Shown here in pieces: positions 689 to 14,431 of a stretch of 64,000 nucleotides of DNA (positions within the stretch are counted from its first letter, which is position 1; every line of letters begins with the position of its first letter). Below the pieces are notes generated by a model, which worked only from the letters and a program-made list of their open reading frames with translations, did no database searches and had not been told where the DNA came from. Source of the stretch: Rhizobiaceae bacterium (GTDB taxonomy: Bacteria > Pseudomonadota > Alphaproteobacteria > Rhizobiales > Rhizobiaceae); assembly GCA_029212415.1 (NCBI GenBank), contig JARGOF010000010.1, forward strand, positions 1-64,000. Direction: 5' to 3'. The translations under genes were made by a program, and so were the position numbers.

Positions 689-2863
689 TCAGGCCAATTG
701 TTGGGCGCGCAATTTGCGTTGCGACAGAACAATCGCCAAAATGACCGTGGCCGCGCCGATCAGGTTGGCAATCAGATGCATCGGCCAGAAGCAGCAGACA
801 ACGCCAAAGGCCATCATCGGCCCGGTGATCAGACTCAACGGCCCTTCGGCATAAAGCTGAATGATGGAATTGATGGCGTAAATGCCGAACAGAGCGAAAA
901 AGCCCACCTGCAGAATTTGCATCCAGTCACCGGAAATCAGTGGCGTATAGGCAAACATCAGCGGGACAATGTAGAGGCCTTTGGCGATTTTCCAGGCCTG
1001 AAACCCTGTCTCCATCGGCTTGGAACCGGCAATGCCGGCTGCGGCAAAGGCGGCAAGGCACACGGGCGGTGTGACATTGCTGTCCTGGCTCAGCCAGAAG
1101 ATGATCAGATGGGCGGTCAAAAGGAACACGGCCTGCTGGGCCGGATCAACCAGCAGGGGGCGGATGGTGATGGCCAGTTCAAAGGGCATGGCCGCCAGCA
1201 GCGCCAAGGCCTCGTCCCGCGTCATGCCGCTGGCAACCTTCGCCGTCAACGGATGGTCCACCAATGCGAACATGGCTGATTTGGCCGGATCGACAATCCC
1301 GGCCACCAGCTGATCGACAATGATCGTATCGGCCAGAATGCCCGCCAGAGCCGGCGCGGTCAGAATTGCAAGGATGATATAGGCCGCCGTCACCGGCAGC
1401 CCCATGCCCAGCACCAGAGACGCCAGACCGATCAGCACGATCGCCAGCACGATCGATCCCTGCGACCATTGCGCGATCATCAGGGAAAAACCGTTGCCGA
1501 TGCCGCTTGTGACAATCGCATTGTTCATGATGCCGATGGCGACCAGCAGAATGCCCGTCATGATCGAGGAGCGCACCCCAACGAGCAGCGCCTCGGCAAT
1601 TTTTGACGGGCCCATGGAGACCGGTTTGAAAAATTCCCCCTTGGTCACTCTGGCCAGCAGGCTGGTGCACCAGGAGACAATGATCAGAGCGGCAATTGCC
1701 CAGGAGGCGGCATAGGAGGGTGTGACACCCGTCATCAGCAGCCAGATCATGACAGTCAGCGGCAATACAAAAACCAGCCCACCGGAGATCATCTTGCCTT
1801 TGTCCACCACCAGATCAACACCCTCACCGACCTGATCCTTGACGGCCTCTATGCGCACGATGAACGCTACGGAGAGGAAATAGAGAATGGCAGGAACCAC
1901 CGAGACAGACACGATGGTTGCGTAGGGAATGGCGGTGTAGCTGGCCATGACGAAGGCGCCCGCACCCATGATCGGCGGCATGATCTGACCACCGGTGGAG
2001 GCCGCAGCCTCTACACCGGCGGCAAATTTCGCCTTGAAACCATTTGCCTTCATCAGCGGAATGGTAATGACACCGGTCGACGCCGTATTGGCAATGGCCG
2101 AACCGCTGATGGTTCCGGTCAATGCCGATGAAAGCACCGCCACAAAGGCGGCCCCGCCGCGCACACGCCCGGCCACCACCTTCGAAATTTCAATGACGAA
2201 GTCACTGGCGCCCGATGCCACCAGAAAGCCGCCGAAAATCATGAACAGGGTAATGTTCGAGGAGGAAATGCTCGCCAATATTCCGAACATGCCTTCATCA
2301 TTGTAGAGGGTTCGAAACAGGACGTCATTGGCCGGCAGGCTGGCTGCCCGGAAAACGCCGGGAAGATGTTCGCCCAAAAACAGAATATAGGAAAGCGACA
2401 GGATGATGAGGATCGGTATGACCCAACCGGAGACCCGCCGTGACAGGTCGAGCGCCGCAAAAATCAGCAGGCAGCCCGCAGCCCAGTCAAGGGCGCTGAA
2501 CTGCCAGGATTGCCCGGTCACCGCCAGCGTTCGCTCATAGATCGAATTTTCAGCACCGGCGATCCACAGAGCCGATGCGGCGACCAACAGGCCGTAGATC
2601 GCATTCAACAGGGTCGACAGGCGCGTTTGGCCGCGCTTGGCGAAAGCCGGCATGGTCACGGCTGCGAGAAAGGCGAATCCACCAAAGTGAATGGCGTTCT
2701 GCCACAGTCCCGGTTCGACCAGATAGACATTTGTTGCAATGTGCCAGATGCCGAACACAACGGCGAACAGGGCGACGGCGGCACGGTAGGGATGGCCGCG
2801 CAACCCATTCCAGGACAGCCATTCGGGATGATCCAGAGCGTCCGCCCGTTCGATATCGCTCAT
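689..2863 (-). CDS. TRAP transporter, fused small/large permease (4TM/12TM, TAXI type)
   Basis: A 724-residue polytopic membrane protein fusing the DctQ-like small subunit to the DctM-like large subunit, as is typical of TAXI-class TRAP transporters. The large domain shows GTISGSAIANTASTGVITIP and EAAASTGGQIMPPIMGAGAF, the substrate/Na+-site signatures of the family, and VLGMGLPVTAAYI further on. The ORF opens at 2884, but ATG 2863 (MSDIERADALD) is preceded by a strong GGGGAGG site, so I chose it. The gene lies 113 bp downstream of its binding protein (92 bp if the longer ORF start is used) and probably shares its transcript. TAXI systems import organic acids by secondary Na+ or H+ symport; the ligand here is unknown. 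Confidence 0.93.
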   Translation of the reverse strand: MSDIERADALDHPEWLSWNGLRGHPYRAAVALFAVVFGIWHIATNVYLVEPGLWQNAIHFGGFAFLAAVTMPAFAKRGQTRLSTLLNAIYGLLVAASALWIAGAENSIYERTLAVTGQSWQFSALDWAAGCLLIFAALDLSRRVSGWVIPILIILSLSYILFLGEHLPGVFRAASLPANDVLFRTLYNDEGMFGILASISSSNITLFMIFGGFLVASGASDFVIEISKVVAGRVRGGAAFVAVLSSALTGTISGSAIANTASTGVITIPLMKANGFKAKFAAGVEAAASTGGQIMPPIMGAGAFVMASYTAIPYATIVSVSVVPAILYFLSVAFIVRIEAVKDQVGEGVDLVVDKGKMISGGLVFVLPLTVMIWLLMTGVTPSYAASWAIAALIIVSWCTSLLARVTKGEFFKPVSMGPSKIAEALLVGVRSSIMTGILLVAIGIMNNAIVTSGIGNGFSLMIAQWSQGSIVLAIVLIGLASLVLGMGLPVTAAYIILAILTAPALAGILADTIIVDQLVAGIVDPAKSAMFALVDHPLTAKVASGMTRDEALALLAAMPFELAITIRPLLVDPAQQAVFLLTAHLIIFWLSQDSNVTPPVCLAAFAAAGIAGSKPMETGFQAWKIAKGLYIVPLMFAYTPLISGDWMQILQVGFFALFGIYAINSIIQLYAEGPLSLITGPMMAFGVVCCFWPMHLIANLIGAATVILAIVLSQRKLRAQQLA

Positions 2864-2976
2864 GCTATCCTCCCCGTTCTGCACACAAGGAGAAGCGGAA
2901 ATAACAATTTCCGCCCCTCTTTTTGCAAAACCGCTTCAGCTCTTCGCCGAAGCGGTTCTGGACCAAAGATCGGCTT

Positions 2977-3990
2977 TTACTTGGCCATCAACCGATCCGG
3001 AATATCCAGACCGATTTCCTTGTAGTAGCGTGCAGCGCCCGGGTGGAGAGGCACTGGCAGACCTGCAGTGGCGACCTCTACGGCCATGCCCTTTGTTGCC
3101 GGATGGATGGCCGACAGAAATCCCAGGTTCTCATAGATTGTCTTGGTGAGCAGATAGACATGCTCCTCGTCAACGCTCGCATTGACAGCCAGGAAGTTTG
3201 GCTGCGCGATCGTCTGGACATCCTTGTCCTGGCCCGGATAGGTTCCGGCCTTGATCGTGTATTGTGTCCACAGATCACGGCCGCCATCCATGGCTTTTGC
3301 CTCGTCGGCGGTAACATCCAGAATGACAAATTTGCCATCATTGGCCGCCATCAATTTGGTAATGGCGCCGGTGGGTGGGCCGGAAGGAATGCCGGCACCG
3401 ACGACCTGACCGTTAGCCATGGCATCGACTGTCGGTCCATAGCCCGCATAGACCAATGTGTAGTCCTTCTCGATATCGATACCAAGACCCGACATCAGAA
3501 CCTTGTTGGAACCAATCGTTCCGGAGTTTTGACTGCCCATGCCCATCGACATGCCCTTGAGCGCCTTGAGATCTTCGACCGTTCCGGTCTTGGCCTTGTC
3601 AGCGGCCACGACGAATTGCTCGACATTCTGCCAGAGCATCGTGATCGAGCGCAGATTTTCCTGAGGCGCCGAGACCGGGCCCGTTCCTGTTGCTGCGTAG
3701 GAACCATAGAGACCCTGCAGAATGGCGAAATCAGCGGTGCCTGCACCAAGCGCCTGAACATTGGCGCCGGACCCGGCCGAATTGACTGCGGTCAGGCTGA
3801 AATCCTCTTTTGGAAGCAGCTTGATTTTTGACAGAGTGGAAATGGCCGTGCCGACGGGATGATAGGTGCCGCCGGTTGAAGCTGTGGTGAGAATATAGTC
3901 CTTGGTCTCGGCAAAAGCAGATGTTGCGGACATGCCGGTTGCGGACAGGGCGAAAACGGCGCCTGCCATGAGCGTGGTGAGTTTTTTCAT
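2977..3990 (-). CDS. TAXI family TRAP transporter solute-binding protein
   Basis: A periplasmic binding protein of 337 residues. A Sec signal peptide (MKKLTTLMAGAVFALS...) ends near SAFA at residues 24-27. The mature protein starts with the TAXI signature TTASTGGTYHPVGTAI, with the conserved Tyr in the Gly-Gly-Thr-Tyr motif, and ends with PLHPGAARYYKEIG, the usual C-terminal TAXI motif. The ORF track extends the start to 4086, but ATG 3990 has an AAGGAGG site directly upstream and is followed by the signal peptide. It is the first gene of the transporter operon, with a good sigma-70-like promoter about 70 bp upstream, and it sits next to a two-component system. Confidence 0.95.
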   Translation of the reverse strand: MKKLTTLMAGAVFALSATGMSATSAFAETKDYILTTASTGGTYHPVGTAISTLSKIKLLPKEDFSLTAVNSAGSGANVQALGAGTADFAILQGLYGSYAATGTGPVSAPQENLRSITMLWQNVEQFVVAADKAKTGTVEDLKALKGMSMGMGSQNSGTIGSNKVLMSGLGIDIEKDYTLVYAGYGPTVDAMANGQVVGAGIPSGPPTGAITKLMAANDGKFVILDVTADEAKAMDGGRDLWTQYTIKAGTYPGQDKDVQTIAQPNFLAVNASVDEEHVYLLTKTIYENLGFLSAIHPATKGMAVEVATAGLPVPLHPGAARYYKEIGLDIPDRLMAK

Positions 3991-4022: not shown

Positions 4023-4037
4023 CACCTGATGCAGGTG
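4023..4037. promoter_or_regulatory. Perfect inverted repeat in the TAXI operon leader
   Basis: CACCTG-ATG-CAGGTG is a 15-bp perfect palindrome between the predicted -10 box (4058-4063) and the start codon of the TAXI binding protein. It falls at roughly +14 to +28 of the predicted transcript. It is a candidate operator or a small leader hairpin. The binding partner is not known. Confidence 0.4.
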
Positions 4038-4057
4038 TAGAGGAAGCACGCATGAGG

Positions 4058-4086
4058 ATACTATGAAGGAAATTGCCTATTGCCAA
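4058..4086 (-). promoter_or_regulatory. Sigma-70-type promoter for the TAXI-TRAP operon
   Basis: On the minus strand TTGGCA (4081-4086) and TAGTAT (4058-4063) are separated by exactly 17 bp, close to a housekeeping -35/-10 pair. The -35 box abuts the T-run of the upstream gene's terminator, so this is the only place a promoter fits between the two units. I found no -24/-12 element with GG-N10-GC spacing in this 123-bp gap. That matters because the neighbouring regulator belongs to the NtrC family. Confidence 0.6.
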
Positions 4087-4087
4087 G

Positions 4088-4112
4088 AAAAACCCTGCGG
4101 ATTTCCGCAGGG
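4088..4112 (-). terminator. Intrinsic terminator after the response regulator gene
   Basis: An 8-bp perfect stem CCCTGCGG / CCGCAGGG with a 4-nt loop (4093-4112) is followed on the minus strand by TTTTTC. It lies 1 bp past the stop codon of the DctD-like gene. It separates the two-component system from the TAXI operon downstream, which therefore needs its own promoter. Confidence 0.85.
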
Positions 4113-4113
4113 C

Positions 4114-5454
4114 TCACGATTGCAGAAGCGTTGCCTTGTCCAGACCCAGTTTGACGATCTTCTCGTTCAGCGTCCGTCTGCCGATCCCCAGGGCCTCGGC
4201 AACATCATCCATCCGGCCGTCATGGCTGACCAGTGCCTTGCCGATGAGCTGGCGTTCAAAGGCGGCGACCGCTTCGCGCAAAGTCTCCGGCGTTGCAACA
4301 TCAGGCCCGCTGACCTGCAGGGCTTCGCGGACAGAACCAGCGCCGCGCCGTGACGCCAGAATATGACGCTCACAGACATTGCGCAGCTCCCTGACATTGC
4401 CCGGCCAGTCATAGGCAATCAGACTGGCAATATCGCTGGAGGTAAGCACCGGCGCCACGGTCTCATAGGTCGCGGCAAACATGTCGAGATAATGCGTGTA
4501 GAGCAGGGCAATGTCATCACGGCGGTCCCGCAGCGGCGGCATGGTCAGCACAATGGTGTTCAGCCGGAAGAACAGATCCTCGCGAAAGGCGCCAGTCTGG
4601 ATCATCGCGTCGAGACGCTCATTGCCCGCAGACACGATGCGAATATCGGCCTGCTTCAGCTCCCGGGAATCCACCAGCGTATATTGCCGGGTCTCGATCA
4701 CCCGGAGGAGTTTTGCCTGCGTCTCCTTCGGGATCGCCCCCAGTTCATCGATGAAAAGGGTCCCGCCCTCGGCCCGCGCCAGCAGCCCCGCACCGGTTTC
4801 CCTGCTGCCAAACAGGGTCTCTTCGAACTTTGGAACCGGAACGGCAGCACAATTGAGCGCGACAAAGGGATCACCCGATCGCGGCCCCAGATCATGCAGC
4901 GCCCGCGCCACCAGTTCCTTTCCGGTTCCCGTTTCACCCAGCAGCATGACATTGGCATTGCTTGTGCTCAGATCCATGATCTCGCCACGCAATGCATCAA
5001 TGGCACTGGTTTTGCCGATCAGGATGCGGTCCAGTCCCGACAGGTCGGCCAGCCGGTCGCGCAGCCTTTGCGTATTGAGGGAAAGGCGATGCAATTGCGC
5101 AGCATTTTCCAAAAGCTTCAGCAGGCGGCGCGGATCAAAGGGTTTTTCCAGAAAACTGTAGGCGCCTTCCTGTATGGCATGCACGGCCATGGGAATATCA
5201 CCATGGGCGGACATCAGCACAATCGGCACGCGGCTTTGCGGCTTCAACTGGCCCAGCAATTCGATACCGGTCACGCCGGGCATGCGCACGTCGCATAGCA
5301 GCACCTCCGTATCCTGCGCTTTCATCCGCGCAAGGATATTTTCTGCCCGGGAAAGACATTGCACCTCAAACCCTGCGGCTTCCAGCAGATGGCTCAGCGA
5401 CTCCCGCATCGATTTGTCGTCATCAATGACCATGATACGATAGGTGGAATTCAT
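4114..5454 (-). CDS. DctD-like NtrC-family response regulator lacking the GAFTGA loop
   Basis: A 446-residue regulator with three domains. The receiver (1-120) has an acidic triad at D11-D13 and phosphoacceptor D55 in LLCDVRMPG. The AAA+ domain (about 145-375) has Walker A GETGTGKE and Walker B GGTLFIDE. A Fis-type HTH ends the protein (VAEALGIGRRTLNEKIVKLG). In NtrC or DctD the Walker region reads ELFGHE-GAFTGA-...-GGTLF. Here it reads TLFGSRETGAGLLARAEGGTLF, so about seven residues including GAFTGA are missing. Loss of that loop normally abolishes sigma-54 activation. The start overlaps the kinase stop by ATGA, showing translational coupling. The probable target is the adjacent TAXI-TRAP operon. 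Confidence 0.9.
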   Translation of the reverse strand: MNSTYRIMVIDDDKSMRESLSHLLEAAGFEVQCLSRAENILARMKAQDTEVLLCDVRMPGVTGIELLGQLKPQSRVPIVLMSAHGDIPMAVHAIQEGAYSFLEKPFDPRRLLKLLENAAQLHRLSLNTQRLRDRLADLSGLDRILIGKTSAIDALRGEIMDLSTSNANVMLLGETGTGKELVARALHDLGPRSGDPFVALNCAAVPVPKFEETLFGSRETGAGLLARAEGGTLFIDELGAIPKETQAKLLRVIETRQYTLVDSRELKQADIRIVSAGNERLDAMIQTGAFREDLFFRLNTIVLTMPPLRDRRDDIALLYTHYLDMFAATYETVAPVLTSSDIASLIAYDWPGNVRELRNVCERHILASRRGAGSVREALQVSGPDVATPETLREAVAAFERQLIGKALVSHDGRMDDVAEALGIGRRTLNEKIVKLGLDKATLLQS

Positions 5455-7190
5455 GACGTCGGCTCATCAATAGGCGGCGCTATCGGCAAATGGATGGTAA
5501 AGACGGCGCCGCCGCCAGGCAGACTTTGCGCCGACAGCGTTCCGTCATGTTCCTTTATGATCCCCGTGGCGATCGACAGGCCAAGCCCCATGCCATCACC
5601 TGAAGCGCGGGTCGTGTGAAAAGGTTCCTGCAACTGATTCAACTGACGCTCTCCAAATCCTGAACCATTGTCCTCAACAGCAATTATGACCGCATCGTCT
5701 GACCGCGAAACGCTGATGGTCAGGCAATCGCCTGATGCCTCCTGCAAAGCGTAAAGGCCGTTTTGCATCAGGTTGACCAGAACCTGTTCAAGCCTGAGCC
5801 TGTTGCCCATGACCGCCAGATCCGGCTCTGCAATATGCTGGCGAACCTGCACTTTTGCCAGCTCGAAGTCGTGTTGCATCAGCTCCATACAACCTGACAC
5901 GACATCGCCAAGCATCACGCGCTGGATTTTTTCATCACCCGGTTTGGTAAAGAAGCGCAATTGTCTGGTGATGTTCTCCATGCGGGCGGCCACGGCGTTC
6001 AATTTCGCCAATGTCGGATGGGATATGCCATTGCCTACAAGTTCTTCCGCCGTCAGATAGTTGCGAAACGCCGATATGGGCTGGCCGAGTTCATGGACAA
6101 CCGACGCGGAGATCTGACCGAGCGCTGCCAATTTGCTGGATCTGGCCAGTTCCGAATGGGCCTTTTCCAGTCGGCTGTTGGCTTCGCGCAACTGATCCCG
6201 GTCTGATTGGGAGGTCAACAGGGCAGCCTGAATGCGCTTTGATCGCTGATAGGCAGCAAAACCCACCAGCAGCGATATGGCCGAACCGAAGACAATGGTG
6301 GCCAGCCAGGCCCGTTCATAGGCACGGGCTTCGCTTAAAAGATAATGCAATTTCCAGTTCAGATGATCCGATTGTGATCCCGCATAAATGTAGGTCCGCT
6401 CGCCAAGCTCGACAGAAGCGCCATCCGGCCTGTTCCATGCCAGCGGCTCCACTGCGATCGCGCCGAATTGCTTGCTCTGCCGGATCGTGCTCAACCGCGC
6501 CGGAGAGACCGGTTCGATGGTGCGAAACAGCCAGTCGCGATTGGAGGCCAGAACCACGATGCCGTCCGGATTGGTGGCAAGCACATTTTCACCGCCATTT
6601 TCCCAGGTCTGCTGCAATTCGCTGGCATCGAGCTTGATGGCGATAACCCCGATAATGGCGTCAGCCCCATCGCGCACCGGCTCGGAGACAAAATAGCCTG
6701 GCCGGCCGGTGGTCACTCCGACACCAAAGTAATTGCCGCGTATGCCCGATATGGCCTGTTTGAAATAGGGCCTGAACCCGTAATTCTGGCCCACAAATGT
6801 CTGTTCCTTATCAAAGTTTGACGCAGCCACGACCAATCCGCTGCGGTCCATCAGGTAGATGGCTTCCAGCCCGGCTTCCCTGGCAAAGCTTGCCAGCCTC
6901 GGATTGAGTGCATCAACCGTTGATCCGCTCAACGCCCCACTGACGAGTGGGTCGCGGGCCAGCACAAAGGGCAGGTGCTGGTATCGTTCTATCGTGTCAT
7001 TCAATGATCGCTTGTAGAGCAGCAAGCGCGTCTGGGCGGCTTCGCGATCAAGCGACTTGAAGTAGGTCAGCGACACAAAGAACAGAAGGCCAATCGCAAT
7101 CGTGGTGATTGAAATCAGAATGATTGCCACGCTTGGCCGGGCGGCCTGTCTGGCTGGATAGGCCTTCAACGGCAAGGATTGCTGCGTCAT
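5451..7190 (-). CDS. DctB-like membrane sensor histidine kinase
   Basis: A 579-residue kinase. TM1 (about 17-40) and TM2 (about 300-320) flank a periplasmic region of about 250 residues of the Cache/PAS-like DctB type. A coiled linker (QLREANSRLEKAHSELAR) follows, then the H-box SVVHELGQPISAFRNY, the N-box NLMQNGLYAL, and the G-boxes DNGSGF and GDGMGLGLSI. The H-x-L-x-Q-P-x-x-A motif is typical of the DctB subclass. The ORF opens at 7244, but MTQQSLPLKAY at 7190 starts shortly before TM1 and has an AGGACG site. It is coupled by ATGA to the response regulator. It presumably senses the TAXI-TRAP substrate directly. Confidence 0.9.
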   Translation of the reverse strand: MTQQSLPLKAYPARQAARPSVAIILISITTIAIGLLFFVSLTYFKSLDREAAQTRLLLYKRSLNDTIERYQHLPFVLARDPLVSGALSGSTVDALNPRLASFAREAGLEAIYLMDRSGLVVAASNFDKEQTFVGQNYGFRPYFKQAISGIRGNYFGVGVTTGRPGYFVSEPVRDGADAIIGVIAIKLDASELQQTWENGGENVLATNPDGIVVLASNRDWLFRTIEPVSPARLSTIRQSKQFGAIAVEPLAWNRPDGASVELGERTYIYAGSQSDHLNWKLHYLLSEARAYERAWLATIVFGSAISLLVGFAAYQRSKRIQAALLTSQSDRDQLREANSRLEKAHSELARSSKLAALGQISASVVHELGQPISAFRNYLTAEELVGNGISHPTLAKLNAVAARMENITRQLRFFTKPGDEKIQRVMLGDVVSGCMELMQHDFELAKVQVRQHIAEPDLAVMGNRLRLEQVLVNLMQNGLYALQEASGDCLTISVSRSDDAVIIAVEDNGSGFGERQLNQLQEPFHTTRASGDGMGLGLSIATGIIKEHDGTLSAQSLPGGGAVFTIHLPIAPPIDEPTS

Positions 7191-7438
7191 GGGTCGTCCT
7201 GGTTCATGACGATCTATATGCCCCATTCGGCCCTGCCGAGGCAAATGGTCAATGGCCAGTCAATTGCAGGACAGAGTAGGGCGACAGGCCTGAAGGGCAG
7301 AGAAACAGATTTTGCCGGCAAAACGACGGCCTTTGAAAACGTGGGGTTGGTATTCCACCAGTCTTCTCTATGGAATGATCACACAGACAAGTATATGTTG
7401 CCATTGAACAAAATGTTTTTAAGACGGAATTATTTTCA

Positions 7439-13055: not shown

Positions 13056-13733
13056 ATGACAACCATTCCTGCAGATCCCTATGCCTGGCCCTTCAATGGA
13101 GATCTCAGACCCGATAACACGGCGCTTGTCGTCATTGACATGCAGACCGATTTTTGCGGCGAGGGCGGATATGTGGACGCCATGGGATATGATCTGAGCT
13201 TTACCAGAGCTCCTATCGAACCCATCAGTACCGTACTCTCGGCCATGCGCGAAAAAGGTTATCACATCATCCATACCCGCGAGGGACACCGGCCGGACCT
13301 GTCGGACCTTCCGGCCAACAAGCGCTGGCGTTCACAACAGATTGGCGCCGGCATCGGTGATGCGGGCCCCTGCGGCAAAATCCTTGTGCGCGGGGAAGCT
13401 GGGTGGGAGATCATCGCGGAACTGGCGCCGCTTGCAGGCGAACCCATCATCGACAAGCCGGGCAAGGGCAGCTTCTGCGCGACCGATCTGGAATTGCTTC
13501 TGCGTACGCGTCGCATAGACAATCTGGTTCTGACCGGCATCACCACGGATGTCTGTGTGCATACAACCATGCGCGAGGCCAATGATCGCGGCTTTGAATG
13601 CCTCATTTTGGAAGATTGTTGCGGAGCGACGGATCCCGGCAATCATGCCGCCGCGATCAAGATGGTCAAAATGCAGGGCGGCGTCTTCGGTTCCATATCC
13701 GACAGCAGCAGCTTTGTGAAAGCATTGCCATGA
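13056..13733 (+). CDS. biuH: Biuret amidohydrolase
   Basis: A 225-residue isochorismatase-like cysteine hydrolase. It closely resembles the Rhizobium leguminosarum biuret hydrolase as I remember it: [37 protein letters not shown] and [14 protein letters not shown] are near-identical in pattern. The catalytic triad D28, K134 and C167 ([15 protein letters not shown]) has the same spacing as D36/K142/C175 of that enzyme. It hydrolyses biuret to allophanate and ammonia in the cytoplasm. First gene of the operon; GAGG about 10 bp upstream of the ATG. It overlaps the next gene by ATGA. Allophanate hydrolase two genes downstream takes its product. Confidence 0.93.
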
Positions 13734-14431
13734 GCATGCCTCAAGCCGCGCGCACCGACACCGGCCAACGCCCGGTCCAGGCCACACCCTTTCCCTTTTT
13801 GCTCGACCCATCCTCGGCAGCGCTCATCGTGATCGATATGCAGCGGGACTTTGTCGAGGCCGGTGGATTTGGCGAAACCCTCGGCAATGATATCACACCC
13901 TGTCAGGCGATCGTGCCGATCGTTCGGCAATTGCTGAAGGGGTTTCGCGCGGCGAAGCTGACCATCATTCACACCCGGGAATGCCATCAGCCGGACCTGT
14001 CGGATTGTCCGCCTGCCAAACGCAACCGCGGCACGCCGAGCCTGCGCATCGGTGATCACGGACCCCTGGGGCGCATTCTGATCGATGGCGAACCGGGCGC
14101 CGAGATTGTCCCGGACCTTGAGCCCATAGCCGGCGAAATAGTGATCGCCAAGCCTGGAAAAGGTGCTTTTTACGCAACAGATCTTCAGCAGATTTTGCAA
14201 CAGCGCGCGATTACCCAGCTTGTTTTTGCCGGTGTGACCACGGAGGTCTGCGTCCAGACCACCATGCGCGAGGCCAATGACCGGGGTTTTGAATGCCTGC
14301 TCGCGCAGGATGCCACCGCAAGCTATTTCCCGCATTTCAAACAGTCGGCCATCACCATGATGACCGCCCAGGGCGCCATCGTCGGCTGGGCCGCTGACAC
14401 CGCAGACATATTGGCAGCCTTCCATGAATAA
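13730..14431 (+). CDS. Second isochorismatase-like cysteine hydrolase, candidate triuret hydrolase (TrtA-like)
   Basis: A 233-residue paralogue of BiuH from the same superfamily. The triad is D36 ([10 protein letters not shown]), K141 ([12 protein letters not shown]) and C174 ([19 protein letters not shown]), with almost the same spacing as BiuH. The ORF track starts it at 13598 inside biuH, but the true start is ATG 13730, overlapping the biuH stop. BiuH-like enzymes beside biuH and atzF include triuret hydrolase, so conversion of triuret to biuret via carboxybiuret is the best guess. Ureidoacrylate- or N-carbamoyl-type amidase activity is possible. It overlaps the following cupin gene by 8 bp. 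Confidence 0.85.

Follow-up and report, generated by a model that had tools for sequence, protein, structure and literature searches.

A clade of DctD-like response regulators has probably lost its sigma-54-contacting loop a single time and moved, together with its target promoter, to the housekeeping RNA polymerase, at which it would act as an activator. One member is encoded in the window, as we call the whole 64,000-nucleotide stretch of Rhizobiaceae DNA analysed here. A shift from sigma-54 to sigma-70 is usually visible only as its end state. In this case, related bacteria show both the earlier and the later state next to operons for the same transporters; the later state has arisen once, has kept the operator and has a different promoter, and two of the genomes lack rpoN altogether.

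The regulator and its locus

The regulator gene is an unbroken open reading frame (Table 1), and Pfam assigned to its product a REC domain (residues 7–115), a Sigma54_activat domain (residues 145–303; 152.5 bits), an AAA lid and a Fis-type HTH. The residues of the phosphorylation site (D11, the phospho-acceptor D55 and K104) and those for ATP binding and hydrolysis (K179, the switch residue N201, D236, E237, the arginine fingers R291/R297 and the sensor-II residue R355) are present and nearly invariant across the GAFTGA-less clade described below. The protein therefore has the AAA+ features of the sigma-54 enhancer-binding proteins (Walker A and B, the switch asparagine and the arginine fingers), and the Walker motifs and the HTH, which the initial annotation had read as intact, are all there. 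What it lacks is their GAFTGA L1 loop, the loop that contacts sigma-54.

At the position of this loop the regulator reads FGS-RETGAGLLARAEGG. Alignment with GAFTGA-type relatives and outgroups, in which FGHEAGAFTGAxxxxxG stands against FGS, the gap and RETGAG in the regulator, showed that exactly eight residues, GAFTGA included, are missing after S217; the initial annotation had recognized the loss and put it at about seven residues. In the structure model, the AAA+ core was predicted confidently (block pLDDT mostly 87–94) and superposed on the corresponding domains of FleQ, FlrC and PspF at 1.5–2.4 Å, with a short hairpin in place of the L1 loop. A sequencing error or a lesion confined to one strain was ruled out by the identical loop in a congener at 98% identity (MAG JARGOX010000005.1) and by the absence of GAFTGA from 29 more distant relatives.

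As the initial annotation had proposed, the setting is a TAXI locus: the minus strand carries, in this order, a dCache histidine kinase, the regulator, a TAXI solute-binding protein and a fused TRAP permease. A kinase–regulator pair next to a TRAP/Dct transporter is the arrangement of the DctB/DctD-type two-component systems, but the regulator itself falls in a clade separate from canonical DctD. The same genome encodes one rpoN, a canonical DctD that keeps GAFTGA (contig 20) and two NtrC/NtrX-like proteins in tandem; thus, the loss of GAFTGA is not a consequence of sigma-54 loss in the organism.

Table 1. Features of the regulator locus in the window (positions count from the first letter of the window)
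Feature	Position	Strand	Evidence or remark
Fused TRAP permease	689..2884	-	TIGR02123, 520 bits
TRAP solute-binding protein of the TAXI family; its gene is the first one after the operator	2977..3990	-	TIGR02122, 264 bits
-10-like TACACC, a poor match to TAnnnT (clade consensus), 21 nt past the box	4034..4039	-	Comparison of loci
-35-like TAGTAT of the conserved promoter (weak); also -10 of the alternative promoter	4058..4063	-	Comparison of loci
Proximal box AGGCAATTTCCTTCATAG, abutting the -35 region; its 32-nt register is that of the second enhancer dyad in GAFTGA-type relatives	4061..4078	-	Comparison of loci
TTGGCA, -35 of the alternative sigma-70 match	4081..4086	-	Promoter scan; L103 sequence
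Putative distal operator, palindrome TGCGGAAATCCGCA, centre about -75.5	4096..4109	-	Conserved in GAFTGA-less loci; the genome's only non-coding copy
DctD-like response regulator (REC-AAA+-Fis HTH), 446 aa, without GAFTGA	4114..5454	-	ORF, Pfam, alignment
Fis-type HTH, recognition region GIGRRTLNEKIVKLGL	4147..4212	-	Pfam, alignment; nearly invariant in the clade
Walker B TLFIDE (D236, E237)	4744..4761	-	D in 31/31, E in 30/31 clade members
Shortened L1 loop codons, S217–G223 (SRETGAG)	4786..4806	-	Alignment; a short hairpin in the structure model, confidently predicted
Walker A GETGTGK (K179)	4918..4938	-	K in 31/31 clade members
Sensor histidine kinase with dCache domain, the regulator's partner; its start codon is uncertain	5451..7244	-	ORF, Pfam; linked in every clade locus examined

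Two further observations concern the same genome. Contig 31 of this genome encodes a second AAA+ protein without GAFTGA (FGVPAAQGQQRLVGLIEQSESG; L139:5748-7202); it has no receiver domain, lies directly upstream of an apparent spermidine/putrescine-type ABC transporter operon, and is possibly a second sigma-54-independent case in the genome. Elsewhere in the window, two adjacent plus-strand genes (13056-13733 and 13598-14431) encode mutually similar isochorismatase-like hydrolases, as judged by eye from their translations.

Ancestry of the GAFTGA-less regulators

Relatives were collected by searches of the genus, family, order and class and by one scan of named genomes. The GAFTGA-less set has 31 members, the window's included, with 51–100% identity, and spans several families of the order as well as other alphaproteobacterial orders. 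The initial annotation had asked whether the loss defines a clade. On a maximum-likelihood tree, all the GAFTGA-less members lie on one side of a single branch with support of 96/95, and after removal of the loop columns the clade was still recovered (92/94; 94% of bootstrap trees). The nearest outgroup (L087/L088) retains GAFTGA or GSFTGA. These trees point to a single loss of the loop, which took place in an ancestor shared by many alphaproteobacteria.

The kinase adjoins the regulator in all clade loci examined, and where a transporter follows the regulator, it is encoded by a TAXI operon or by a DctP-DctQ-DctM-like operon. Both settings also occur among the GAFTGA-bearing relatives (TAXI in L126, L134, L135 and L141; DctPQM in L133, L136 and L140), and the nearest GAFTGA-bearing sister likewise adjoins a TAXI operon. 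Orthologues that keep GAFTGA in the same context had been named beforehand as evidence against a sigma-54-independent role. The four TAXI-linked ones do keep it, but on the tree they fall outside the clade, and their promoters are of the sigma-54 type, so that they provide a contrast and not a refutation.

Loop changes of other kinds were seen as well. In one clade member from a Rhodobacteraceae contig (L041:6001-7287), the gap is larger, at about 19 residues, and takes in the preceding FG. On the canonical DctD branch, three proteins have altered loops (GAFPSA, GAFRGA and GAFPGA in L023, L070 and L075, respectively); the Walker B glutamate is also changed in L023 and L070, and next to L023 (context in L142) is a TRAP-like operon that has a TGGCAAATTTATTGCG site.

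Promoters with and without the loop

All 11 GAFTGA-bearing loci have a strong -24/-12 match before the transporter, between the genes for the regulator and the solute-binding protein, with TGGCACATGCATTGCT and TGGCACGGCAATTGCT as examples. The site lies 66–101 nt before the start codon in 10 of them. The 11th, L094/L136, was considered as an exception and rejected as such, because its site, farther from the regulator, was seen when the whole intergenic stretch was read. Most of these loci also have tandem dyads, GGCRG-N4-YTGCC, spaced by 31–33 nt and placed 78–108 nt before the -24 element (in L126, the spacing is 32 nt and the distance to this element 78 nt); in L093 this arrangement was not clearly readable.

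For comparison, we used 20 non-redundant GAFTGA-less loci carrying a conserved box. Between regulator and transporter, these loci have a palindrome, TGCGGAWWTCCGCA, which corresponds to the surviving distal dyad, and the box, GCGCAATTTTCTTCATAG, 23–26 nt from the palindrome centre. The box starts 31–33 nt after the palindrome start, the register of the second enhancer dyad in the GAFTGA-bearing kin, and it resembles the left half of that dyad (GGCAATTTT); the right half now reads TTCATAG and has no dyad match. A convincing -24/-12 site, which a sigma-54 enhancer-binding protein would have at its adjacent target, was found in none of the 20. Instead, a sigma-70-like -10 hexamer (consensus TAnnnT) follows 20±1 nt after the box, and none of 2000 shuffles was as good. 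A 17-nt spacer then puts the -35 hexamer at TAGnCA, which consists of the end of the box and a C and an A enriched outside it (13/20 and 11/20; binomial probabilities of 0.0004 and 0.002, which are optimistic since the sequences are related). With this spacer, the palindrome is centred at about -75.5 and the proximal site at about -43.

These comparisons support the notion that the promoter changed along with the regulator, from a -24/-12 type to a housekeeping type. The switch maps to one branch and is one historical event, not 31 independent confirmations. The box is absent from the early-branching loci L012, L014 and L015, and L014 has a weak -24/-12-like site (score 9.3, p=0.037). Among the early-branching GAFTGA-less regulators, those of L111, L113 and L114 (genomes G007, G004 and G002, respectively) are without the box; L111 and L114 have no TRAP operon directly behind the regulator, and the pattern used did not find the element in the genomes of these two.

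We rejected two other readings of the conserved element. The palindrome is not an intrinsic terminator, as the T-run behind it is not conserved and a terminator scan found none. The box might be a degenerate -24/-12 site (GGCA-N6-TTCAT), but no locus retains the GC of the -12 element and most have also lost the GG of the -24 element, and the second-dyad register and the downstream -10 hexamer account for the box better.

The -10 and -35 hexamers of the window itself (TACACC and TAGTAT) are among the weaker copies in the clade. A different register, TTGGCA-17-TAGTAT, matches sigma-70 better (9/12) and occurs only in the window's species pair.

The palindrome has five copies in the window's genome; the other four lie in coding sequences and have no box, which led us to discard a wider regulon based on it. 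The composite pattern matched 15 times in 398 genomes of the order, seven times at GAFTGA-less TRAP loci and eight times elsewhere without the box. In genome G787, the regulator is on one contig, not beside a TRAP operon, and the element is on another, where it precedes a DctP operon and its box is followed at exactly 20 nt by TATAGT; this locus had no part in deriving the pattern. Thus, as predicted, the element stays with the transporter where the regulator and the transporter are separated.

Mode of action and known systems

The families of the two proteins suggest that the dCache kinase autophosphorylates upon ligand binding and that the phosphate is transferred to D55. The regulator would then bind two sites three helical turns apart, the palindrome around -75.5 and the proximal box around -43, beside the -35 hexamer. 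Its binding to the proximal box is likely rather than certain, because the right half of the box has no dyad match. From the proximal site, the regulator may act like a class II activator and recruit sigma-70 polymerase to a promoter composed of a weak -35 hexamer and a TAnnnT -10 hexamer. ATP binding, and probably hydrolysis, would serve oligomer assembly and no longer the remodelling of sigma-54; that ATP is still used in this way is suggested by the retention of all the catalytic residues. In the most specific version of this scheme, an enhancer-dependent sigma-54 regulator became a class II activator of sigma-70 polymerase jointly with its tandem enhancer, with the three-turn register kept, the -24/-12 site lost, the proximal site merged with a new -35 region, and an ATP-dependent AAA+ oligomer acting beside the promoter; we consider this version about as likely as not.

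We infer that the effect of the regulator on sigma-70 polymerase, exerted at the proximal site, is activation and not repression, although repression would leave much the same footprint. A sigma-54-independent repressor could occupy the proximal box over the -35 region and block sigma-70 polymerase until the kinase signals. The box does abut the -35 region, the window's alternative promoter would sit under it, and Caulobacter NtrC, which has no GAFTGA, represses CtrA-activated promoters while activating others (PMC10274813). We nevertheless regard a repressor as unlikely: the clade's -35 hexamer (TAGnCA) is poor, as expected of an activated promoter, the ATPase and phosphorylation residues are all retained, and the promoters of the GAFTGA-bearing kin are built for sigma-54, which cannot work there without an activator.

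Independence of sigma-54 is in line with the distribution of rpoN. The gene is present in 16 of the 19 GAFTGA-less genomes tested, and no match was found in G477, a genome only 86% complete. Two Pfam models, which found the positive control, detected no rpoN in the complete genomes G705 and G933, and both carry the regulator, the palindrome and the box before a DctPQM-like operon (L128 and L129). The presence of rpoN in the window's genome and in most genomes with the regulator would suit a protein that still uses sigma-54 through a different contact of its shortened loop. Such a contact is very improbable in view of the two rpoN-less genomes, the absence of -24/-12 sites from the boxed promoters, and a loop shorter by eight residues and by still more in L041; moreover, loss or change of the central GAFTGA residues reduces or abolishes activation in the proteins studied (PMC3162934). 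Together with the single origin of the clade, the confinement of -24/-12 sites to loci that keep GAFTGA and the -10-like element, these data agree with the housekeeping promoter proposed in the initial annotation, and sigma-54 independence is well supported by the comparisons. That a part essential to the family is gone might also mean a regulator on its way to a pseudogene. This reading is hardly credible: the frame is open in all 31 members, the most distant at about 51% identity, their catalytic residues and HTH hardly vary, and the operator is conserved. The loss looks selected, as had been supposed.

NtrC relatives without GAFTGA are known, whereas a clade like this one, DctD-like, linked to TRAP transporters and with a promoter conversion that can be traced, appears to be undescribed; in the open-access literature we found no published DctD- or TAXI-linked regulator lacking GAFTGA. 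The clade offers a testable system for the role of ATP in an AAA+ activator once the remodelling of sigma-54 is no longer its task. A further lesson is that the annotation 'sigma-54-dependent', when based on domains (Sigma54_activat, 152 bits here), can mislead for a whole clade.

The regulator belongs with the sigma-70-acting NtrC-family regulators in having NtrC-family domains with GAFTGA lost and in being conserved in genomes without rpoN. The nearest precedents are two NtrC proteins. In Rhodobacter capsulatus NtrC, the sites are farther upstream of the promoter. This protein, also an NtrC-type response regulator without GAFTGA, belongs to another orthologue group (nitrogen control); activation through sigma-70 has been reported for it (as cited in PMC10274813), and its loop deletion is larger than that of Caulobacter NtrC (PMC10274813). 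Caulobacter NtrC has, like the window's regulator, an L1 deletion of eight residues, and it acts at sigma-70-type promoters and requires its Walker A/B residues in vivo (PMC10274813). It lies outside the DctD-like branch, however, its deletion is independent, and it has a wide regulon of activated and repressed genes, whereas for the window's regulator one putative non-coding operator was found in the genome.

In VpsR, TyrR, DhaR and HupR, GAFTGA is lost or altered, and sigma-54 independence has been reported or argued (PMC3162934); these proteins differ from the window's regulator in signals and targets, and mostly in domain make-up. The VpsR structure was among the fold matches of the regulator model, with 24% identity over the structural alignment. 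DctD of C4-dicarboxylate transport shares the domain order, about 42–44% identity, a kinase partner and a transporter target, but keeps GAFTGA and has a different recognition helix (SRKGLYDK versus GRRTLNEK in the window's regulator). The GAFTGA-less TRAP clade is an independent case within the DctD-like branch.
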